Source: a virus | Reading direction: 5' to 3' (one strand) | Length of the DNA: 31,257 bases | Virus record (IMG/VR): IMGVR_UViG_3300008219_000059 | Coordinates: 1 to 31,257 of that record | Part shown: positions 8,306 to 31,257 of the stretch, piece after piece | How positions within the stretch are numbered: position 1 is the first letter of the stretch | How the letters are laid out: each line of letters opens with the position of its first letter | Program-made: the position numbers and the translations under genes | Notes under the pieces: generated by a model | Told to the model about the DNA's origin: nothing | Database searches by the model: none | The model's input: only the letters and a program-made list of their open reading frames with translations

Positions 8306-10219
8306 TTAAGTCACCTGATTTGGTTGCATGTAATGAGATTGTGGTAGTGTACTTTGTGCATATGCTGTATTAATATTACTTACTGGTTGAGGTTGTGGTT
8401 GCTGTGGTACAGGAGCATTTGCTGTATTAGGAAGCATAGTTAATCCTTTATTTAATAACTGTGCCTGATTATATTGAGGTACAGAAGGAGCAGGAACATT
8501 TCCTTGAGCATAAGCATTTGCAACAATACTTCTTAGCCCACTCTTTATATTATCTCCTATATTCTGATTAACAGTATTTATCATTCCCTCCTGATTAGGA
8601 ACTCCACTATATTTATCTCCTTCATATCCCATCTTTGTAGCTAACAGTTTTTCAATATTCTCTCCTGCCTGATAGACTGAAGGATTTCCTCCATGAGCCA
8701 GAGATATTAATCCTCCCTGTGCTCTTTGTTCCTCTCCCCCTGCTTGTATAACTTCCCAAGGTTCTATAATTTCTTCTTCTCCAGATACAGTTGGGAAAGA
8801 ATATTTAGGAAGCAGCCTACTTCCTACTAGATTAAGAGCAGCAGTAGCTACTGGAGGAATTCCTAGAGCACCTCCTCCTATAGATATTAGTAGATTTTTA
8901 AGAATATCATTAAAATTTAATCCTCCTAAAAGATTCCCTACGTTGCTTAGTCCACCCTTAAAGTCAGGATTATATCCAGTCCAAACTGGCATCTGTCCTT
9001 CGAGTTCATCTAACTCCCTTGTCGATCCTACTTTTCCTCGCCAATCTCTAACACCCCAAGTTCCGGGGCTATAGAAAGACGGTCCTGAACCTGACATTAT
9101 ATTTTCTCTGGATTGTGCTGCCCTCTGACGAGTTTTGTCAACTGGAAACTGACCATAACTTAGAGGAGGCCATGCTGAAGCAGCTTCTAAATAAGGATTT
9201 GCCGTGCCTTCTATAAGTGGTTCTACGGGGGCTGATCTAGGTACTCCATATATATCTTCTCTAGTTGGACCTGAAGTAGGATCAGTTCCTATCGCTGTAG
9301 AAAGAGGAGAAGGAGTTATTAAATCTGTTGCTCTAGGTACTCCAAATATATCTTCTCTAGTTGGACCTAAAGTAGGATCAGTTCCTATTATTGTAGAAAG
9401 AGGTGCATAGCGGGGACCACTTGCCGGACTCCACTGACCTTGTGCTATTAGATTAAGATAATTTTCATCTGCCTGTGATTCTATAGATTCCTGCTGTGCT
9501 AATAATGCATCTCTTTCTGCTTGTGATTTTAAGAAATCCTCCAATTGCTTTCTTCTTCTTTCACCCTCTATCGTTTCATATCTTCTGCGATTATCATAAA
9601 ATGATCCTCTGGGTATGTCTGTAGGAATAAGAGTTTCAGCATATAGTGCATCATCGTCAAGAGTGCTGCGTGTTAGTTTATCTAATTCTGATAATCCTCC
9701 TGTAGTAGGGGATGTTGATTTAATAATTGGAACATTAGCCTTATCGTCTTGTGGAACACCTCTAAATGTTGTTACAACGCTTTTTTTGGGGGGTTTAGTC
9801 CCTTTCAATTTAGCCAACTGAAATTCCGCATTAAGTTCAACTTCAGGATACTTTCGCCTTCCTGACGGATCATATTCCCGTTGGAAATTTATATAATCAT
9901 ATATTCTTTCAGTTTCCTCATCAGTAAATCGAATACCTGCCTTGTCACCTAATCCAAAGGGGCCAATGCGTTGTTGTTCTCTAACAGGAAGAAGAGGTTC
10001 TGGAGCCAACGGATCACTTGGAAATTCTGGAGCCAACATACCACTTTGATATAGAGCTTCTGAGGCATAGGGATCAGTTCTAGCAACATTTGCTAGTGCC
10101 TCTTCTCTATTCATAGCTCTCTGCATCAAATCCCTATCTTCCTCCTGTTGTGCTTGAGAGGGTGCTGACTCCTGTTCTTCAAACCCAAAAAAACCTACAT
10201 CTGTAAAGTCATTTGCCAT
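8306..10219 (-). CDS. Proline/glutamine-rich internal virion protein, 637 aa
   Basis: I place the start at the ATG at 10219, which overlaps the previous stop (TAATG) and has AGGA upstream; an upstream in-frame TTG at 10237 is less likely. The protein is hydrophilic and charged at the N-terminus, with a 32-residue tandem duplication around GTDPTLGPTREDIFGVPR. A hydrophobic Gly-rich segment (NLLISIGGGALGIPPVATAA) lies in the second half. The motif AQGGLISLAHGG begins at about residue 500 and parallels EGGLLSLQDGG of the next gene. The tail end is Pro/Gln-rich with two AYAQ segments. Its place beside the other ejection proteins and the shared Gly-Gly motif point to an internal virion protein. 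No family was firmly recognised. Confidence 0.65.
   Translation of the reverse strand: MANDFTDVGFFGFEEQESAPSQAQQEEDRDLMQRAMNREEALANVARTDPYASEALYQSGMLAPEFPSDPLAPEPLLPVREQQRIGPFGLGDKAGIRFTDEETERIYDYINFQREYDPSGRRKYPEVELNAEFQLAKLKGTKPPKKSVVTTFRGVPQDDKANVPIIKSTSPTTGGLSELDKLTRSTLDDDALYAETLIPTDIPRGSFYDNRRRYETIEGERRRKQLEDFLKSQAERDALLAQQESIESQADENYLNLIAQGQWSPASGPRYAPLSTIIGTDPTLGPTREDIFGVPRATDLITPSPLSTAIGTDPTSGPTREDIYGVPRSAPVEPLIEGTANPYLEAASAWPPLSYGQFPVDKTRQRAAQSRENIMSGSGPSFYSPGTWGVRDWRGKVGSTRELDELEGQMPVWTGYNPDFKGGLSNVGNLLGGLNFNDILKNLLISIGGGALGIPPVATAALNLVGSRLLPKYSFPTVSGEEEIIEPWEVIQAGGEEQRAQGGLISLAHGGNPSVYQAGENIEKLLATKMGYEGDKYSGVPNQEGMINTVNQNIGDNIKSGLRSIVANAYAQGNVPAPSVPQYNQAQLLNKGLTMLPNTANAPVPQQPQPQPVSNINTAYAQSTLPQSHYMQPNQVT
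9234..9406 (-). repeat. 96-base tandem duplication within the 637-aa virion protein gene
   Basis: Two copies about 70 bases long and roughly 90 percent identical by eye are offset by exactly 96 bases. Each encodes a segment like PLSTxIGTDPTxGPTREDI followed by GVPR. The offset is a multiple of three, so the repeat is in frame. Confidence 0.9.
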
Positions 10220-22581: not shown

Positions 22582-22603
22582 ATTTTATCCCTTTTAAAAA
22601 TAT

Positions 22604-22631
22604 AAGAAGGAGGGATTTCTCCCTCCCTCTT
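22604..22631 (-). terminator. Strong intrinsic terminator after the major capsid gene
   Basis: On the minus strand a 12-base-pair stem (AAGAGGGAGGGA with TCCCTCCTTCTT, one G-U pair) closes on a GAAA tetraloop and is followed by ATATTTTT. It begins 10 bases after the capsid stop codon. GC-rich stem, stable tetraloop and U-tract are the textbook form of Rho-independent termination. Confidence 0.88.
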
Positions 22632-22641
22632 AATGGTTGAA

Positions 22642-23595
22642 TTAACCAGTATTACCGAAGAAGCCTCTCCAGTCAGACCAACCAAAGCTATAACGCTCTC
22701 TGGCTTTGAAACGGAGATTTCCAGTATCAAAATCTGGCTCCATTTTAGTCTGTAGAGGTGCTCTAACAAACATCTTAGTACCGTTAGGAACATTAGTCTT
22801 AACGTACCAACCATCTGTATCGGTAAACCGCCGATTAATCTGAGAACCCTTTGGCAGCATTGACATGCTACGAACTGAGTTCACATCGTTCCACCCTGAT
22901 GGTGCGGTTAGTGCAGAACTGCCGTCAATGGCAATACTACCTGCTGCCGGAACCAACTGGGAGTTTAGTAGTGAATTAGCTGTTGCCCAATAATCTGGTG
23001 GAATATGAAGTGAGACAGCAGACCCACCAACCAGAATACCACGATCATCTTTGATCTTCTGAATCGTCGTAAGTGCAGATTCAAGAGATGCATAAGCAAG
23101 ATCAGCAGCACTCAAGGAGTTGGACTGATTGCCATCACTTATCGTTGGATGGGCAGCACTGAAAAGCGGAACCCCATCTCCACCATGATAAGCAGCAGTA
23201 TCGGTAAAGCCGTTGTTGAAGATATCAGCAGCTTTAACCTCTTTCGTATTAGCCATCGCTCTTGCAAGACCTTTGGCACGAAGTTTGGCGAAGGTATCAT
23301 ACAGATTGTCCTCCATCGCCTCTTCCGTGACAGCAAAAGCAAGACTAATGGTTTCATTAGTATAACGGGCAGTATAACTTTCTGAAGCAGTATCATAAGT
23401 TACTGCAGCACCCTCTCCCTTAACAGGAGCAGTACCAAACCCAGTAAACAGAACCTCTTCTTCAAAGGCTCTATCTGAATTTTCAATTTCAAAAAGTGCT
23501 CTATGCTCGTTATCAACATCCCCGTATTCTAAACCAAACACGGCGTTCAAACCGGGGAGTAGTTCTTTAGCAATACTAGCTCTATTAATAGCCAT
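22642..23595 (-). CDS. Major capsid protein (HK97 fold, Mu gpT-like), 317 aa
   Basis: ATG at 23595, with GGGGGAG spaced seven bases. The sequence resembles Mu-type major head proteins: EVLFTGFGTAPVKGEGAAV and SYTARYTNETISLAFAVTEE in the N-terminal half, a long helix with EAMEDNLYDTFAKLRAKGLA, and a conserved Trp/Phe-rich end (RYSFGWSDWRGFFGNTG). Its size is near that of Mu gpT. It follows scaffold and decoration-like genes and precedes a strong terminator, the usual arrangement for a highly expressed shell protein. No prohead protease gene was found next to it, so maturation may rely on scaffold exit rather than cleavage. Confidence 0.85.
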   Translation of the reverse strand: MAINRASIAKELLPGLNAVFGLEYGDVDNEHRALFEIENSDRAFEEEVLFTGFGTAPVKGEGAAVTYDTASESYTARYTNETISLAFAVTEEAMEDNLYDTFAKLRAKGLARAMANTKEVKAADIFNNGFTDTAAYHGGDGVPLFSAAHPTISDGNQSNSLSAADLAYASLESALTTIQKIKDDRGILVGGSAVSLHIPPDYWATANSLLNSQLVPAAGSIAIDGSSALTAPSGWNDVNSVRSMSMLPKGSQINRRFTDTDGWYVKTNVPNGTKMFVRAPLQTKMEPDFDTGNLRFKARERYSFGWSDWRGFFGNTG

Positions 23596-24764: not shown

Positions 24765-25706
24765 TTAACCTCCACGCTGTGTTTGAATAGTTGTATATTC
24801 CCCATCGGCTAAATCAGCCTTTCTTTTTTCTGCGGCATATACCTCAAGAGGAATATTCCATTTAGTAGCTAACCTCACATCTTCTTGTGATAGTTTAACT
24901 TTTTTACTGGAACTTGCAGGTTTGCGTGATGCTCCTGCAACCACTTGAGCAGGTTGTGTCGTAACCTGTTCCGAAACTTCTTCTTCTACCTCCTCATATC
25001 TATGAGGAAATTCCTTTTTTAATCTTCTGTCTATTTCTGTATAAAAATCATCGTCAGAAGTATTAAATCCCATCTGCTTTAATTCAGCATCTATAGCTAA
25101 AGCTGCTGCAGTTCTTACTGAGTCTTTACCAAACCATTCATTTTCTGCAGCCCAACTTTGAGCTTTTGGATCAGGAGCTTGAGGTGCAGCCCTCTTTTGT
25201 TCCTGTCTTTGTTCAATTGCTTTTTCATAATTAGAAAGAGCAACTTTTCTTTCACCTAAATTCTGTAAGTCAAGCTGTGCTTGGTTTAAAGCTTCCTGCG
25301 CCTTAAGAACTTTATCTGAATCTCCATCTTCATAAGCTTCTCTATAATTACTTCTTGCTAATTCAATCTTATCTGTAAGCTGTTGTTCAGAAACTTCTGT
25401 ACTTACTTTTTGAGTATCAGTAAACTGTTTTTCTCTTGTTAAAATACTTCTTTGCAATTCTTCATTATCTTGCATTAGTTTCTGAATCTGCTCATCTCTA
25501 GATTTTCTCTGAGAAACTAACTGCCTAATTCTTTTTTGTGCTCCTTTTGTTTCTATCCCGTCAAGTTCTTCTGGCTCTTCTACAGTTTTTTCTTTAACTT
25601 CGACAGGTTTCGTTTCTTTTTTAGGAGCCATCTCTCCTTCAATTTCAAAATCTACTTTTTCTTCCGACACTTCTATATTATTCCACCCTTCTTGAGTATC
25701 ACTCAT
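24765..25706 (-). CDS. Putative capsid scaffolding protein, 313 aa
   Basis: ATG at 25706, preceded by GGGAG and a dedicated promoter. The protein is Glu/Lys/Gln-rich and almost wholly helical. A charged N-terminal arm (PKKETKPVEVKEKTVEEPEE) precedes a coiled-coil region at about residues 60-200 (IRQLVSQRKSRDEQIQKLMQ, LDLQNLGERKVALSNYEKAI). A C-terminal section has SSKKVKLSQEDVRLATKWNI. A helical, charged protein just before the capsid gene is the normal place and form for an internal scaffold. It is the first gene of the capsid unit. Protease motifs were not seen. Confidence 0.75.
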   Translation of the reverse strand: MSDTQEGWNNIEVSEEKVDFEIEGEMAPKKETKPVEVKEKTVEEPEELDGIETKGAQKRIRQLVSQRKSRDEQIQKLMQDNEELQRSILTREKQFTDTQKVSTEVSEQQLTDKIELARSNYREAYEDGDSDKVLKAQEALNQAQLDLQNLGERKVALSNYEKAIEQRQEQKRAAPQAPDPKAQSWAAENEWFGKDSVRTAAALAIDAELKQMGFNTSDDDFYTEIDRRLKKEFPHRYEEVEEEVSEQVTTQPAQVVAGASRKPASSSKKVKLSQEDVRLATKWNIPLEVYAAEKRKADLADGEYTTIQTQRGG

Positions 25707-25760: not shown

Positions 25761-25790
25761 ATTATACTATAAGTTATAGTGATCGCGCAA
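25761..25790 (-). promoter_or_regulatory. Promoter-like site upstream of the scaffold/capsid unit
   Basis: Minus-strand -35 TTGCGC (25785-25790), an 18-base spacer and a perfect TATAAT (25761-25766). The spacer contains the palindrome ACTATAAGTTATAGT (25766-25780). The predicted start lies about 50 bases before the scaffold ATG, in the longest gap of this part of the operon. The form is sigma-70-like, and the -35 resembles those before terL and portal. Confidence 0.7.
25766..25780. repeat. Perfect 15-base palindrome in promoter spacer
   Basis: ACTATAAGTTATAGT reads the same on both strands around a central base. It overlaps the last base of the -10 box and fills most of the spacer, so a bound dimer would block or recruit polymerase. 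An operator role is inferred. Confidence 0.6.
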
Positions 25791-25797
25791 CCCCCTG

Positions 25798-26220
25798 TTA
25801 ATTAGATAAATTAAATGTTGGGTCTAAATATTTTGGATTTTGTACTTTCAGCAGAATTTGATCATCAAATAAGAGAATTAATTTAATTCCTTTATACTGC
25901 ATCTTTACTCCTGCATTTTTACCGTAGCAAACATAGTCTCCTTTTTTACACCACGGTCCTTCAGGAAATTTATCTTTATCCATATAAGCTAACTTTCCTA
26001 AAGTTATAACTCGTCCTACTGTTGTAAGATAAGCCATGTCATCTTTTGTTGAATCGGGAAGAAGAACACCCCCCTTTGTTTTTGTTTTAACAGAAACGGG
26101 ACGAACTAGAACATGATATCCCGGTATAGTTGGAAGAGGAGAAGGATCGGAAACTTCCTCCTCCTCCCCAGAAATCCACTTATCGTTTATAATTGCTTTG
26201 TTTAAAGCTAGTTGTTGCAT
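25798..26220 (-). CDS. GroES/Cpn10-like co-chaperonin, 140 aa
   Basis: ATG at 26220 with AAAGGAG upstream. From about residue 33 it follows the GroES barrel: GYHVLVRPVSVKTKTKGGVL (strand, then the glycine pair that opens the mobile loop), LLPDSTKDDMAYLTTVGRV, LGK, then FPEGPWCKKGDYVCYGKNAG and LLFDDQILLKV. The loop VLL corresponds to the IVL-type hydrophobic tripeptide that contacts GroEL. An N-terminal extension of about 32 residues, rich in Glu/Ser/Pro, is unusual for GroES. The likely role is partnering host GroEL to fold the capsid protein, as phage T4 gp31 does. No GroEL gene is present here. Confidence 0.82.
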   Translation of the reverse strand: MQQLALNKAIINDKWISGEEEEVSDPSPLPTIPGYHVLVRPVSVKTKTKGGVLLPDSTKDDMAYLTTVGRVITLGKLAYMDKDKFPEGPWCKKGDYVCYGKNAGVKMQYKGIKLILLFDDQILLKVQNPKYLDPTFNLSN

Positions 26221-26235
26221 ATTTAATTTTCTCCT

Positions 26236-26433
26236 TTAATCGTCATCATTGTCTGAACGCATTCTTTTCTTAAGAATATCTCTCAGTGCTTCTCTTGACC
26301 ATTCTATACCAGCACAGTATCCTACCATATGTTTATAAGTAGGAAAATCATCTGCACTTCCTGCAGCAACTGCTCTAACTATTGTTTCTAATTCTTTATT
26401 ATATTTTTGGACGACCTCATCCCAAAGCTCCAT
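26236..26433 (-). CDS. Small acidic protein, 65 aa
   Basis: The ATG at 26433 lies two bases after the stop of the 57-aa gene, with GGAGG about 13 bases upstream inside that gene. It is helical and acidic (MELWDEVVQKYNKELETIVR), with HMVGYCAGIEWSREALRDIL and an Asp-rich C-terminus. Small acidic proteins of this type are common near the portal gene of podovirus-like genomes, but no function can be read. It is probably translated together with its neighbours. Confidence 0.55.
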   Translation of the reverse strand: MELWDEVVQKYNKELETIVRAVAAGSADDFPTYKHMVGYCAGIEWSREALRDILKKRMRSDNDDD

Positions 26434-26435
26434 GT

Positions 26436-26609
26436 TTATTCTGCTGCCTCCACAACAGGCTGATTCTGATAGAACTCAGGCCATCCAACCATGTTAAAGA
26501 CATATCCTATTGCCATACCTACACCTATGGCAATTATAATTTTCCAATGCTTGGAGCAACAACTTATTATTCTTTCACTCCACGCTGTAATACTTGAAAT
26601 TATGTTCAT
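26436..26609 (-). CDS. Small single-pass membrane protein, 57 aa
   Basis: This gene encodes 57 residues from the ATG at 26609; its ribosome site AAGGAG lies at the end of the portal gene and includes the portal stop region. It begins MNIISSITAWSERIISCCSK, then a hydrophobic segment IIIAIGVGMAIGYVF (about residues 24-38) long enough for a membrane pass, and ends in a short acidic tail. The next ATG follows two bases after its stop. A holin-like or virion membrane role is conceivable, but nothing beyond one hydrophobic helix supports it. Confidence 0.6.
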   Translation of the reverse strand: MNIISSITAWSERIISCCSKHWKIIIAIGVGMAIGYVFNMVGWPEFYQNQPVVEAAE

Positions 26610-26612
26610 ATA

Positions 26613-29279
26613 TTACTCCTTGTCTGTTTCATTATACTCACCCTTTTCCCCTTCCATTCTGGTTGCCATTTCCGCAACCTTAATCAAAGTTTCTTGGGCT
26701 TGTTTATTTCCTTCTGCCTCGCCTCTTTCTGCTGTATCTATTAATTTTATTAAAGCTTTTAACTGTTCAATATTACTTTTTACTGCATCTCCTTTTGAGG
26801 CTTGAGACAACTTTGCCAATGTATCCATAACTTTTAGTTCCTGTTCCTGATTTAAATCAGCTTCCTTAACTGCAGCATTAAATAACATATCTACAGCTTT
26901 CATGGATTGTTTAGCAATTCTATCCCTTTCTTTTTCTTCTGACTTACTCTGCTGTTCTGCTCCCTTTTGAACAGCCTTTACAGCTATTTCAGATTCTTCA
27001 ATATCTAACTTCCTATTTTCTAAAGCAGCTTCTGTTGCATCAGTTTGTAATTGTATCTGAAGTTTCTGCTGTTCCAAAGCTAGTCTGGCTTTTTCAATCT
27101 CTACCATCTGCTGTTCTGGAGACTGCTGTGGACCCATAGCCATATTTGCATTAAGAACCTGTTGTGCAGCCTGTGCCATAGCAAGTTCTGCTGTTTGAGG
27201 CATTGCTGCTTGATCAGGAGGTAACTGCTCAATCATCTTCCTTGCAACACCATTTACCTGTTCTTGGTATTTCATAATTGAATGTTCCTGAATATTAGAT
27301 TCAAGAAGAGGTTTTATTCTTTGCATAATTGGAGACTTACCATGAGCAGGGTCTTGTAAGTATGCCATCTTTATCTGAATATGAGCATCATGATTCTGAC
27401 CGGGGAAGGACGCAATTGGAACTCCCTTTGTTGCAGCCATAATATCTGAAATAGGATCAAGGGGTTTAGGCTCAATCTTTGGAGGAAGTATCTGATCCAG
27501 ATTCGGCATATTCGCCGCTCCAAGGATTGTTCTATTTAAAGCTTCCAGATTGAACATACCGGGAGGAGACTGTTGAGATAACTGTAAAGCCATCTGAGCC
27601 AACATCATCCTGTGTGCATTAGAGGGAATATTGGGATCAGAAACGGGGATAATATCTACCCTTCCGTCAAAATCCCTTTTTAGAACGTGTCGGGATTGCC
27701 CCGGCACATTGAACGGATATTCATTTGGTAGGTAATCGTGATTGATTCTTCCCAATATCTTTAGCTCATCTCTCTGCGATTTGTGAAGTCTTTTATGTAT
27801 AGCACTGAAAAACTTACTTGACGCTTCAAGCAAAGCCATTGTCGTTCCGACAGGACCATATGAGGAAGCATCTGATACCATTTTTTCTGTGTTATCAGCA
27901 AACTTCTGACCTGCCCCTGAAACAAAGCCAAGCATCTGGAACAGAGTCGAGGAAGGCTCTTTATATGGCAAAGTAATAATTGCTTTACTTAGGTCCATAC
28001 CAGTTGCTTCAACTTCTTTAAATTCCCCCGGTGCTATTGGATCATTATCGCCTACAATTCTAACTCCTTTAGCCTTATATCCCCCCGGTAGGTTCGCAAA
28101 CTGACCTGCATCAATGAGTGCTCTCATGGCTGCTGTCGCAGTCATTGTGAGATTACCAAGGAAGTGGATCAGTCCTAACCCGTAAAAACCGAATCCCGGT
28201 ACGAATCTATAGTGTACAAAATGTAATATTTTTTGTCTCGTTTCGTCGTCGGGCTTGTAGTTTCTACGAATACTAAGTATTTTTCTTGATTGCTCTTCCA
28301 GAGTGACAATGTAGGGAAGAGCAATTCCATCATCGTATTCTGGATCATCTTCCAGTTCTAGATAACAATGCTGCTCCAATAAAGTATATTGAGGATCATC
28401 TGCTCCTGCAGGAGACACACCAAGGATTGTATCCATCTTGGTTGTCATTGCACTTAGCATTGGTATTCCTGCATCTGGAAGATCGACATCCATATACATA
28501 CCTGAAGCTATTTCTCTAGCTAAATCATTTGGACTTCTATAAATAACATGAGTATACCTATCTGCTTTTCTTAAATCACTTGCATAATAAGAGACATAGA
28601 ACTGGTCAATAGGAACAAACTCTGAAACTGGTCTGTCCAAAGAAGCGTCATAATAAATCTTTTTGAATGCTGAACCTATCAATGGCAGATGGAAAAGCAT
28701 TCTTTCAAACTCATCAAAGTATTCTGGCATCTGCTCAGTAAGCTGGTAGTTCATAAACTGCTCTACCCTGTCAGCTTGCATTTCTTTTTCTGGAGAATAG
28801 TCTCCCATGATCTGAGCTTTAACTGGACCAGAAGGAGGAAATAATTCGTTGGATGCTTTTGACTGGAACTTAACAGCGTTCTCTACAAGCATTGGATGTA
28901 CTGCTGTACATGCTCCCTCGAAAGGCTGTGAAGCTTCCTCAAGTTTTAATCCAAGAAGATCGAAGCCTCTTTCAAACATAGACTCCCATTCATTTCTTGA
29001 ATCCTTATCTGCAGTAAACTTATCAAAAACTCCTGCAGATATGTCTTCTAAATCTGTATCATCTATGTTTTCAGCGAGATTTTCAAACCACTCTTCTACT
29101 GTGGGCTTTTGTTCAACCTCCAGACTGTCCTCAAAATTGACTACAACTCCCCCATCTGGGGATGCATCAATAGTAACTGCTTCTCCTATTTCAGCAGACA
29201 CGCCACCTTGCCCCACAGGAAGGGTAATGATTTCTGCCTGTTGTCCTATTGTTTCATATGGATTTCGTTCAGTTGCCAT
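26613..29279 (-). CDS. Portal protein (SU10/P22-like, long C-terminal coiled coil), 888 aa
   Basis: ATG at 29279, with AAGGA upstream. The central portion has the portal pattern: EWESMFERGFDLLGLKLEEA, FQSKASNELFPPSGPVK, FERMLFHLPLIGSAFKKIYY and IDQFYVSYYASDLRKADRY. A conserved segment near the middle carries RFVPGFGFYGLGLIHFLG and LIDAGQFANLPGGYKAKGVR. Residues from about 690 to 850 form a Gln/Glu/Lys-rich helical region (QMVEIEKARLALEQQKLQ) comparable with the barrel seen in P22-like portals. It is a ring at one vertex through which DNA is packed. Position directly after terL supports it. SU10 likeness is by pattern recall only. Confidence 0.85.
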   Translation of the reverse strand: MATERNPYETIGQQAEIITLPVGQGGVSAEIGEAVTIDASPDGGVVVNFEDSLEVEQKPTVEEWFENLAENIDDTDLEDISAGVFDKFTADKDSRNEWESMFERGFDLLGLKLEEASQPFEGACTAVHPMLVENAVKFQSKASNELFPPSGPVKAQIMGDYSPEKEMQADRVEQFMNYQLTEQMPEYFDEFERMLFHLPLIGSAFKKIYYDASLDRPVSEFVPIDQFYVSYYASDLRKADRYTHVIYRSPNDLAREIASGMYMDVDLPDAGIPMLSAMTTKMDTILGVSPAGADDPQYTLLEQHCYLELEDDPEYDDGIALPYIVTLEEQSRKILSIRRNYKPDDETRQKILHFVHYRFVPGFGFYGLGLIHFLGNLTMTATAAMRALIDAGQFANLPGGYKAKGVRIVGDNDPIAPGEFKEVEATGMDLSKAIITLPYKEPSSTLFQMLGFVSGAGQKFADNTEKMVSDASSYGPVGTTMALLEASSKFFSAIHKRLHKSQRDELKILGRINHDYLPNEYPFNVPGQSRHVLKRDFDGRVDIIPVSDPNIPSNAHRMMLAQMALQLSQQSPPGMFNLEALNRTILGAANMPNLDQILPPKIEPKPLDPISDIMAATKGVPIASFPGQNHDAHIQIKMAYLQDPAHGKSPIMQRIKPLLESNIQEHSIMKYQEQVNGVARKMIEQLPPDQAAMPQTAELAMAQAAQQVLNANMAMGPQQSPEQQMVEIEKARLALEQQKLQIQLQTDATEAALENRKLDIEESEIAVKAVQKGAEQQSKSEEKERDRIAKQSMKAVDMLFNAAVKEADLNQEQELKVMDTLAKLSQASKGDAVKSNIEQLKALIKLIDTAERGEAEGNKQAQETLIKVAEMATRMEGEKGEYNETDKE

Positions 29280-29330
29280 TCTTATAAGTATCCTTAAATT
29301 TTGAAATGTCCCAAGTACTCGCCTTGCACC

Positions 29331-29359
29331 ATTATAACACTAAAAATTCCAGTACGCAA
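29331..29359 (-). promoter_or_regulatory. Promoter-like site upstream of portal
   Basis: Minus-strand -35 TTGCGT (29354-29359), a 17-base spacer, and TGTTATAAT with a TGn extension and a perfect TATAAT (29331-29336). The -35 lies inside the end of terL and the -10 in the 60-base gap. The predicted start is about 45 bases before the portal ATG. Confidence 0.65.
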
Positions 29360-30902
29360 CCCTCTGTTGTCTACGGGGATTTTCGTCATCTTCCCAAGAG
29401 GGATCATCTGGGTGGCCTATACGCCAAGACTCTCTCATATAATGGACTGCCATTGTCAGGGCATCCACCTGATCATCATGCTTTGCATGGGGAAAGGTAA
29501 TTAATTCTTCTACGAGTTCATCTGCCCATCTTTTATTCTTTGGTATCCAAACTCTTCCTGCTTCAAGTAAAGGACTTGCTGCATATACCCTTGCAACCTT
29601 ATCCTTATCTGGTGTATATTCCAGAACTGGCAGACCTCCTCTTCTCATATCCTGTATAAGAGACTGTCCAGAGGCTTTCTTTTCTACAATACACACATCT
29701 GGCTTATACTCATCGTAGAGAAGCTGCGCCATTCTTCTTAGATCAGGGTATTCATAGCGTCCTCTCTGGTTTCCAAGCAGGATAAGATTACCTCCATAGT
29801 ATTCTCTTCCCTTATCATCTTCTTCTGCTGTATCAAAAATACCCCATGTCTGTATGACACTGAAATCTGCAGTTGTTCTTGTACTGAACGCTGTATCATA
29901 TGTCTGAATTATAAAATCACATTCAGGAGGATCGTCGTAATCCCATTCCTGTATCCACCTCTTCTTTATTACACCCCCTTCTTCAGGGGTTGGGTTCTGC
30001 ATATATAAAGAGTTCCAGTATCTGGACCCATTACTTGCAATAATCTCTTCTTCATCTATTCTTAAAATTTCATCTGGCTTCCATTCAGGAAAATAGCTTG
30101 ATCCTACAGGTAAATCCAGTAATTCAGAAGCTTCATCGTCTATCCATGCAGGAATCTTTACAACTTCCCAAGGATATGTTACTTCCATATCCATTATTTC
30201 CTGTTGTTTTAGCAACCATCCACAGAGATCATCATGATGATACCTTGTATTAATGATAACTATCGCACCATTAGGCATAATACGGGTTCTTAAGCCAGCA
30301 GGATACCATTCCTTGATATATCTCCTACCTGCTTCAGAGAAAGAGTCTTCTTCAGACATTGCATCGTCTAATATGGCTATATGTGCACCTCTACCAGCAA
30401 TCTGGCTTCGCACACCTGCCGCATAGTACGTTCCATTGTGGTTTGTCTTCCACTTTCCTGCTGCTCTTACATCTGATCTTAGAGTAACTCCCTTGAATAT
30501 GTCCTGAAACTTGTCCATTCCAACAATATCTCTTACTGATCTACCGAAATCAGAAGATAGTTGGTCACTATGAGAGATTGTAAGGATTTCGTGCTCTGGA
30601 TTATTACCTATATACCAAGCAGGGAATAGCTTTGAGCAGATTACAGACTTTGAACTACGAGGAGGAAGAAAGACCATAAGCCTTTTTATCTTTCCTTCCT
30701 TAACTTTCTGTAATTTATCTGCTAAAACCCTGATGTGCTTCCCCATCTTCCAGTCAGAGACAAGAGTTGGAGCCATTAATCTGATAAAAGACAGGAAATC
30801 ATCATTACATTTGGATGTAATCCTCTGATCCAGTAAGGAATACATCGCAAGAAGACCATCATACTTGCTTATTTCTGTGTTTTCTATGTTTTGTTCTGTC
30901 AT
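29340..30902 (-). CDS. terL: Terminase large subunit (TerL), 520 aa
   Basis: ATG at 30902; no clear ribosome site is visible, only AT-rich leader. The ATPase half has Walker A LPPRSSKS (79-86) and Walker B HIAILDD with Asp179 and Asp180, followed by the coupling motif INTRYHHDD (217-225). The C-terminal RNase-H-like nuclease has Asp336 (TYDTAFS), Glu407 (VEKKASG) and the HDDQVDA cluster (Asp476, Asp477, Asp480), consistent with metal-binding acidic residues. It packs and cuts phage DNA at the portal. Length fits the family. The Walker A lacks the usual G..GKS glycines but retains the Lys-Ser pair, as seen in many phage terminases. Confidence 0.93.
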   Translation of the reverse strand: MTEQNIENTEISKYDGLLAMYSLLDQRITSKCNDDFLSFIRLMAPTLVSDWKMGKHIRVLADKLQKVKEGKIKRLMVFLPPRSSKSVICSKLFPAWYIGNNPEHEILTISHSDQLSSDFGRSVRDIVGMDKFQDIFKGVTLRSDVRAAGKWKTNHNGTYYAAGVRSQIAGRGAHIAILDDAMSEEDSFSEAGRRYIKEWYPAGLRTRIMPNGAIVIINTRYHHDDLCGWLLKQQEIMDMEVTYPWEVVKIPAWIDDEASELLDLPVGSSYFPEWKPDEILRIDEEEIIASNGSRYWNSLYMQNPTPEEGGVIKKRWIQEWDYDDPPECDFIIQTYDTAFSTRTTADFSVIQTWGIFDTAEEDDKGREYYGGNLILLGNQRGRYEYPDLRRMAQLLYDEYKPDVCIVEKKASGQSLIQDMRRGGLPVLEYTPDKDKVARVYAASPLLEAGRVWIPKNKRWADELVEELITFPHAKHDDQVDALTMAVHYMRESWRIGHPDDPSWEDDENPRRQQRVAYWNF

Positions 30903-30991
30903 ATGTTATATATAGTTATTATAAAAGAAGGGAATATTAAAAGATAAATATAAAGTGTATATAATTTAAAGAGTTTGTCTTGTCTGTGTAG

Positions 30992-31020
30992 ATTATAACA
31001 TATCTATATAGACTACACAA
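30992..31020 (-). promoter_or_regulatory. Promoter-like site upstream of terL
   Basis: Minus-strand -35 TTGTGT (31015-31020), 17-base spacer, then TGTTATAAT, an extended and perfect -10 (30992-30997). The predicted start is about 80 bases before the terL ATG. The palindrome TCTATATAGA (31003-31012) lies within the spacer. Confidence 0.72.
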
Positions 31021-31133
31021 GCCCCGGTTTGGAATTAATTACCCCAGATGAGAGTGACCCTTGTATTTTTTGTAAATTTTTGAGAGGTCTGTTTATATAT
31101 ATATGAGTGTGTGCGTGTTTGTGGGGGTGGGTA

Positions 31134-31220: not shown

Positions 31221-31257
31221 CTCTCCATAGAACGAACTCTACGAGTTCTATGGAGAG
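31221..31257. repeat. Perfect 13-base inverted repeat at the window end
   Basis: CTCTCCATAGAAC and GTTCTATGGAGAG are exact reverse complements separated by 11 bases that themselves contain part of a smaller hairpin (GAACTC, GAGTTC). The right arm ends on the final base of the window. Confidence 0.85.

Follow-up and report, generated by a model that had tools for sequence, protein, structure and literature searches.

The middle promoters of phage T4 combine a good -10 element with a non-canonical element that replaces the -35 box, and their recognition is aided by the phage proteins MotA and AsiA (PMC7403470). In the Thermus phage P23-45, for which the phage protein gp39 has been described, the early promoters are of the -10/-35 type, and those of the middle and late genes rely largely on an extended -10 element (PMC7403470). 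For the pelagiphage HTVC027P, the expression of the host RNA polymerase genes rises during infection (PMC12753301); promoters or motifs are not mentioned in the main text of that transcriptome paper. Here, we analyse the structural (late) operon in a clade of uncultivated marine podoviruses, the nearest isolates of which are the pelagiphages HTVC027P and HTVC023P: Their large terminase subunits (TerL) are 37-40% identical to the TerL analysed here. No confirmed relative of the terL gene was found in the genome collection that was searched.

Results

The window, i. e. the whole stretch of DNA that was analysed, comprises 31,257 nt of the IMG/VR virus record IMGVR_UViG_3300008219_000059 and is part of a podovirus genome. 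A companion IMG/VR record of 55,223 bases (G001) is near-identical to it, and a position in the window equals the G001 position + 4574. G001 shows a structural arm, the first gene of which is terL, and an arm for replication on the opposite strand; the early and late arms were defined by strand, not by expression. Using terL peptides without the terL C-terminus we fetched 80 relatives, and the terL tail was thus not selected for. A cut-off of <95% nucleotide identity reduced these relatives to 42 lineages, and counts of lineages are phylogenetically non-independent. A search of the window and of L084 against Rfam gave zero matches.

The initial annotation had placed three promoters of one design in front of terL, portal and scaffold. 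The motifs TTGTGT, TTGCGT and TTGCGC, each followed by TATAAT, are indeed present exactly where they had been read, all on the minus strand (Table 1), and the -35 boxes of portal and scaffold are preceded by the G-runs AGGG and GGGGG, respectively. The window is AT-rich and TATAAT alone is frequent (50 copies vs 32.5 expected); the composite motif has no further exact match elsewhere in the window. In G001, TTGYGY-N17/18-TATAAT was observed four times with 0.03 expected, and with the G-run added the motif is confined to the terL, portal and scaffold sites (0.00 expected; two register hits stem from the run at scaffold). The TTGYGY form is thus over-represented at promoter positions of this phage genome. 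The same three sites are carried by the related genome G002. In the near-identical relatives, a TTGCGT-N17-TATAAT on the opposite strand precedes a gene for a protein of 75 aa (G001 30270-30298, plus strand; L006 near 557, minus strand).

Table 1. Features of the late operon, with positions in the window.
Feature	Position	Strand	Details
terL promoter	30992..31020	-	-35 TTGTGT 31020-31015; 17-nt spacer; TATAAT 30997-30992; TGT before -10 (extended -10, TGn)
G-run GGGGC, terL	31021..31025	-	immediately upstream of the terL -35
Palindrome TCTATATAGA, terL spacer	31003..31012	-	
terL (terminase large subunit, 520 aa)	29340..30902	-	Pfam Terminase_6C/6N, phrog_38; 3' end holds the portal -35
Portal promoter	29331..29359	-	-35 TTGCGT 29359-29354; 17-nt spacer; TATAAT 29336-29331; TGT before -10
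Portal protein (888 aa)	26613..29279	-	phrog_1216, E 5.7e-33
GroES-like co-chaperonin	25798..26220	-	Pfam Cpn10 4.4e-11; stop codon 8 nt before the start of the scaffold promoter
Scaffold promoter	25761..25790	-	-35 TTGCGC 25790-25785; 18-nt spacer; TATAAT 25766-25761; entirely intergenic
Inverted repeat ACTATAACTTATAGT, scaffold spacer	25766..25780	-	final T coincides with base 1 of the -10
Putative scaffold protein (313 aa)	24765..25706	-	phrog_28737, unknown function; same place in HTVC023P/027P
Major capsid protein	22642..23595	-	Pfam Phage_capsid_4 3.3e-14
13-bp hairpin with T-rich tail	22603..22632	-	right after the capsid gene

The absence of the motif from relatives, which the initial annotation had named as the finding that would speak against it, was not observed: TTG-N16-18-TATA(A/C)T is present at the terL/portal junction in 40/42 lineages (0.4 expected), upstream of terL in 32/39 (1.2 expected) and upstream of scaffold in 19/25 (0.4 expected), and a relaxed score raises these numbers to 42/42, 38/41 and 24/25, respectively. 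The design is thus fixed at three points of the late operon and kept in the relatives. Among the 104 lineage sites that were listed, 90 have an exact TATAAT as their -10 element, and the TTG of the -35 box is retained in 42/42 portal, 37/38 terL and 22/24 scaffold promoters. The spacer of the portal promoter is exactly 17 nt long in all 42 lineages, and 40 of the 42 portal promoters have a TG at either of two positions before the -10. The clade-wide constant part is therefore TTG-N17-TATAAT, usually with a TG directly before the -10. The remainder of the -35 hexamer varies among the lineages and relatives do not share the same variant: The orthologous terL promoters have TTGACA in 13/38 lineages, and TTGAC was found in none of the 42 portal and none of the 24 scaffold promoters. 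A GGG within 6 nt upstream of the -35 is present in 8/38 (terL), 16/42 (portal) and 3/24 (scaffold) lineages; the G-run was rejected as a conserved element as it is not clade-wide and as, at portal, most of it belongs to the reading frame of terL. Of the phage-specific family that had been proposed, the promoters themselves are thus conserved, whereas the TTGYGY hexamer and the G-run are mainly confined to the close lineage of the window. The -35 boxes of portal and scaffold within a genome are more alike than in shuffled pairings (24 lineages), a coupling of low weight because the shuffling ignores phylogeny; the terL -35 shows no excess likeness to either of them over shuffled pairings. Unlike the window, G010, G012, L048, L053, L058, L069, L071 and L073 have the string AGTGGGG(G)AGT in common, which lies in the spacer (17-18 nt) of their terL promoters. 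As judged from their sequences, the three sites go beyond chance and are probably real late promoters.

The portal promoter overlaps the end of terL. Its -35 box lies within the last terL codons GTT GCG TAC TGG (Val-Ala-Tyr-Trp) and its spacer includes the terL stop codon (29342-29340), so that the -35 and most of the spacer are coding DNA in the window. This overlap (GTT GCN TAY TGG, with the -10 after the stop codon) is found in 35/42 lineages. The codon bias under the -35 was ranked against comparable conserved columns of the same terL alignment: GTT is used in 33/33 lineages (rank 1 of 17), GCG in 13/35 (37%) as compared to a mean of 4% in the other conserved alanine columns (rank 1 of 22), and TAC in 27/35 (77%) vs 29% (rank 1 of 14). 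Since the synonymous sites at the terL end depart from general codon usage, they do not reflect protein conservation alone, and the codons appear to be selected for the DNA motif TTGC[A/G]T. On the terL tree, GCG has changed 7 times and the overlap 4 times. All seven lineages without the overlapping copy have a replacement just downstream (TTGCAT, TTGCAC or TTGTAT, N17, TATAAT). This retention of the portal promoter in spite of its relocation is the best sequence evidence that the promoter works. Since the promoter is written into the last terL codons, this stretch bears protein and promoter information together.

Of 15 lineages, 14 carry a hairpin of 9-15 bp (GGGAGG/CCTCCC) behind the capsid gene, 4-15 nt past the stop codon. 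Most of them are without a clear T-rich tail, which the window and a few further lineages possess; the hairpin may thus be a terminator in some lineages and an mRNA-protecting stem in others. It may close the scaffold-capsid transcript unit, and together with the scaffold promoter it would frame a scaffold-capsid cassette. The scaffold role of the putative protein is derived from the position of its gene between portal/GroES and capsid.

The end of the window at 31257 falls inside a long non-coding stretch between the arms (G001 about 26440-27200; L084 6440-7200). This stretch contains several long inverted repeats, e. g. CTATTTAGCTCTCCATAGAAC...GTTCTATGGAGAGCTAAATAG with 21-bp arms, and is a possible origin or packaging region. 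A C-rich ACCCACCCC element is located upstream of terL at about 31130 of the window (minus strand ACCCACCCCCAC) and upstream of terL in the isolate 023Pt_psg01 (L104), where it is present twice (GGGCCCACCCACCCC); a similar string, ACCCCCACCC, is found near 9750 in G007.

Discussion

With a probability of roughly two in three, the three sites are sigma70-type promoters at which the RNA polymerase of the host starts and re-starts the late operon. The operon would start at terL and re-start at portal and at the scaffold-capsid cassette; the needs of the polymerase would be met by strong parts, i. e. TATAAT, the usual TG before it, the exact 17-nt spacing, and TTG, and the last three bases of the -35 are non-canonical and drift among lineages. 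The three promoters would reinforce transcription over the length of the operon, the internal ones chiefly for high-copy proteins, and the hairpin 3' of the capsid gene would end or protect the scaffold-capsid transcript. Sequence comparison shows the presence, position, spacing and conservation of the sites, the constraint at the codon level and the relocated copies; we infer that the sites act as promoters, that they do so late, that host sigma70 reads them, and that they serve dosage.

The textbook -35 box of sigma70 is TTGACA. As measured by the general bacterial consensus, the -10 is perfect at all three sites of the window, and the TTG and the spacing of 17-18 nt agree, whereas bases 4-6 of the -35 differ. 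The orthologous terL promoters with TTGACA point to ordinary recognition by host sigma70. None of the families matched by the G001 proteins that were scanned from the early arm is an RNA polymerase or a sigma factor. The rise of the host RNA polymerase genes in cells infected by HTVC027P fits a reliance on the host polymerase, but is no test of it. Two observations count against ordinary sigma70 recognition: The portal and scaffold -35 boxes are never TTGAC even though promoters on the opposite strand favour it, and the apparent selection for GCG, which makes the -35 TTGCGT, would be unexpected for a sigma factor that reads TTGACA.

Such observations would be accounted for by a phage-encoded factor at the -35, either an activator or a remodeller of sigma region 4, that switches the polymerase from an early TTGAC class to late TTG-YR promoters with a strong (extended) -10; the initial annotation had likewise suggested an activator or an altered sigma contact. 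T4 AsiA/MotA and P23-45 gp39 are precedents for a changed use of the -35 (PMC7403470). We consider such a factor possible but rather unlikely. At appropriately spaced sites, TTGAC makes up 30% on the opposite, presumed early, strand (5% background) and TTGC[AG] 36% on the late strand (7% background), and the two classes differ with P 0.01 in counts that ignore phylogeny and with arms assigned by strand rather than expression, which weakens the case. Among the 66 non-coding late -35 boxes, 40 have YR and 13 have AC at bases 4 and 5, which are strongly coupled to each other (Fisher 1e-7, phylogeny ignored), and the TG just before the -10 in nearly all portal promoters is also in line with a phage factor. 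On the other hand, a third of the terL promoters do have TTGACA, and the lineage of the window carries TTGCGT on the opposite strand as well (G001 30270) but yielded not one canonical promoter of the form TTGACW with TATAMT. Moreover, the conserved TTG and 17-nt spacing suggest that the -35 is still read. The search for the factor itself identified no activator: The one conserved small early protein that was modelled, of the candidate family A1 (G001 40513-40923), gave an all-helical model (pLDDT 78) that matched no known structural relative. A1 and the product of G001 34251-34442 are small replication-arm proteins of unknown function, each present in five or six other compared lineages, and are candidate transcription factors. 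The winged-helix protein PF14090 (G001 38501-38701) was rejected as the regulator as it has a counterpart in only one other compared lineage. The more specific scenario, in which the factor would replace the early TTGAC class by a late TTG-YR-Y class with a strong -10 and thereby fix the rare GCG in the terL end, seems slightly more doubtful still. If the difference between the -35 boxes of the two arms were functional, it would point to a new early-to-late switch acting on the host RNA polymerase.

The two palindromes that the initial annotation had taken for a possible operator of one regulator do exist, one in the spacer of terL and one in that of scaffold. Both are weakly significant (P about 0.04-0.11 at terL, about 0.01 at scaffold), and chance by itself is an improbable source of the scaffold one. 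However, the portal promoter lacks a palindrome, the half-sites are pieces of TATA-rich sequence, and no inverted repeat is conserved across the promoters and the relatives: Within the close lineage of the window the terL palindrome is altered in G002, in L008 (CTATATAA) and in L005-L007 (CTACATAG), the scaffold palindrome is lost in G002 and kept in part in L008, and elsewhere both are absent. Broken in the nearest relatives, the palindromes do not support an operator, a proposal that is largely refuted by this missing conservation and that we regard as very improbable. Least probable of all is that the portal motif is a by-product of TerL, the conserved V-A-Y-W of which encodes the TTGC portion, and that the other two sites are chance matches in AT-rich DNA with frequent TATAAT, an explanation refuted by the conservation of the portal TATAAT although it lies 3' of the terL stop codon, by the synonymous constraint, by the relocated copies wherever the coding copy is lost, and by the conservation of the terL and scaffold sites although they are non-coding.

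Read by host sigma70, the promoters would form a gene switch of a largely ordinary kind that is well conserved and has an unusual -35 box. Our work provides the first candidate late-promoter map for an uncultivated clade related to pelagiphages, in which the promoter embedded in the terL end can be traced at the codon level through about 40 lineages. The predicted transcription starts near 30985, 29324 and 25754 are exact and testable.

The window clade shares the order terL, portal, GroES, scaffold-position gene and capsid with HTVC023P and HTVC027P; in these isolates, however, extra genes separate terL and portal, and neither the end of terL nor the regions ahead of portal and scaffold have a comparable promoter. 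With P23-45 the clade has late promoters with a strong (extended) -10 in common, but it conserves TTG and its spacing. The late promoters thus do not seem to be independent of the -35 as in a gp39-type system, and no gp39-like protein was found. A good -10 combined with a non-canonical element in the -35 region is also typical of the T4 middle promoters with their MotA box and AsiA. The T4 MotA box lies nearer to the -10 and reads TGCTT, whereas the TTGC of the window clade keeps the -35 spacing of sigma; the scanned G001 proteins, a subset of its genes, gave no match to the MotA/AsiA families. Finally, the promoters share TTG, the 17-nt spacing, TATAAT and the frequent TG with those of bacterial sigma70/RpoD (TTGACA-N17-TATAAT, extended -10 TGn), and they differ from them in bases 4-6 of the portal and scaffold -35 boxes, which are mostly C/T, purine, and T/C.
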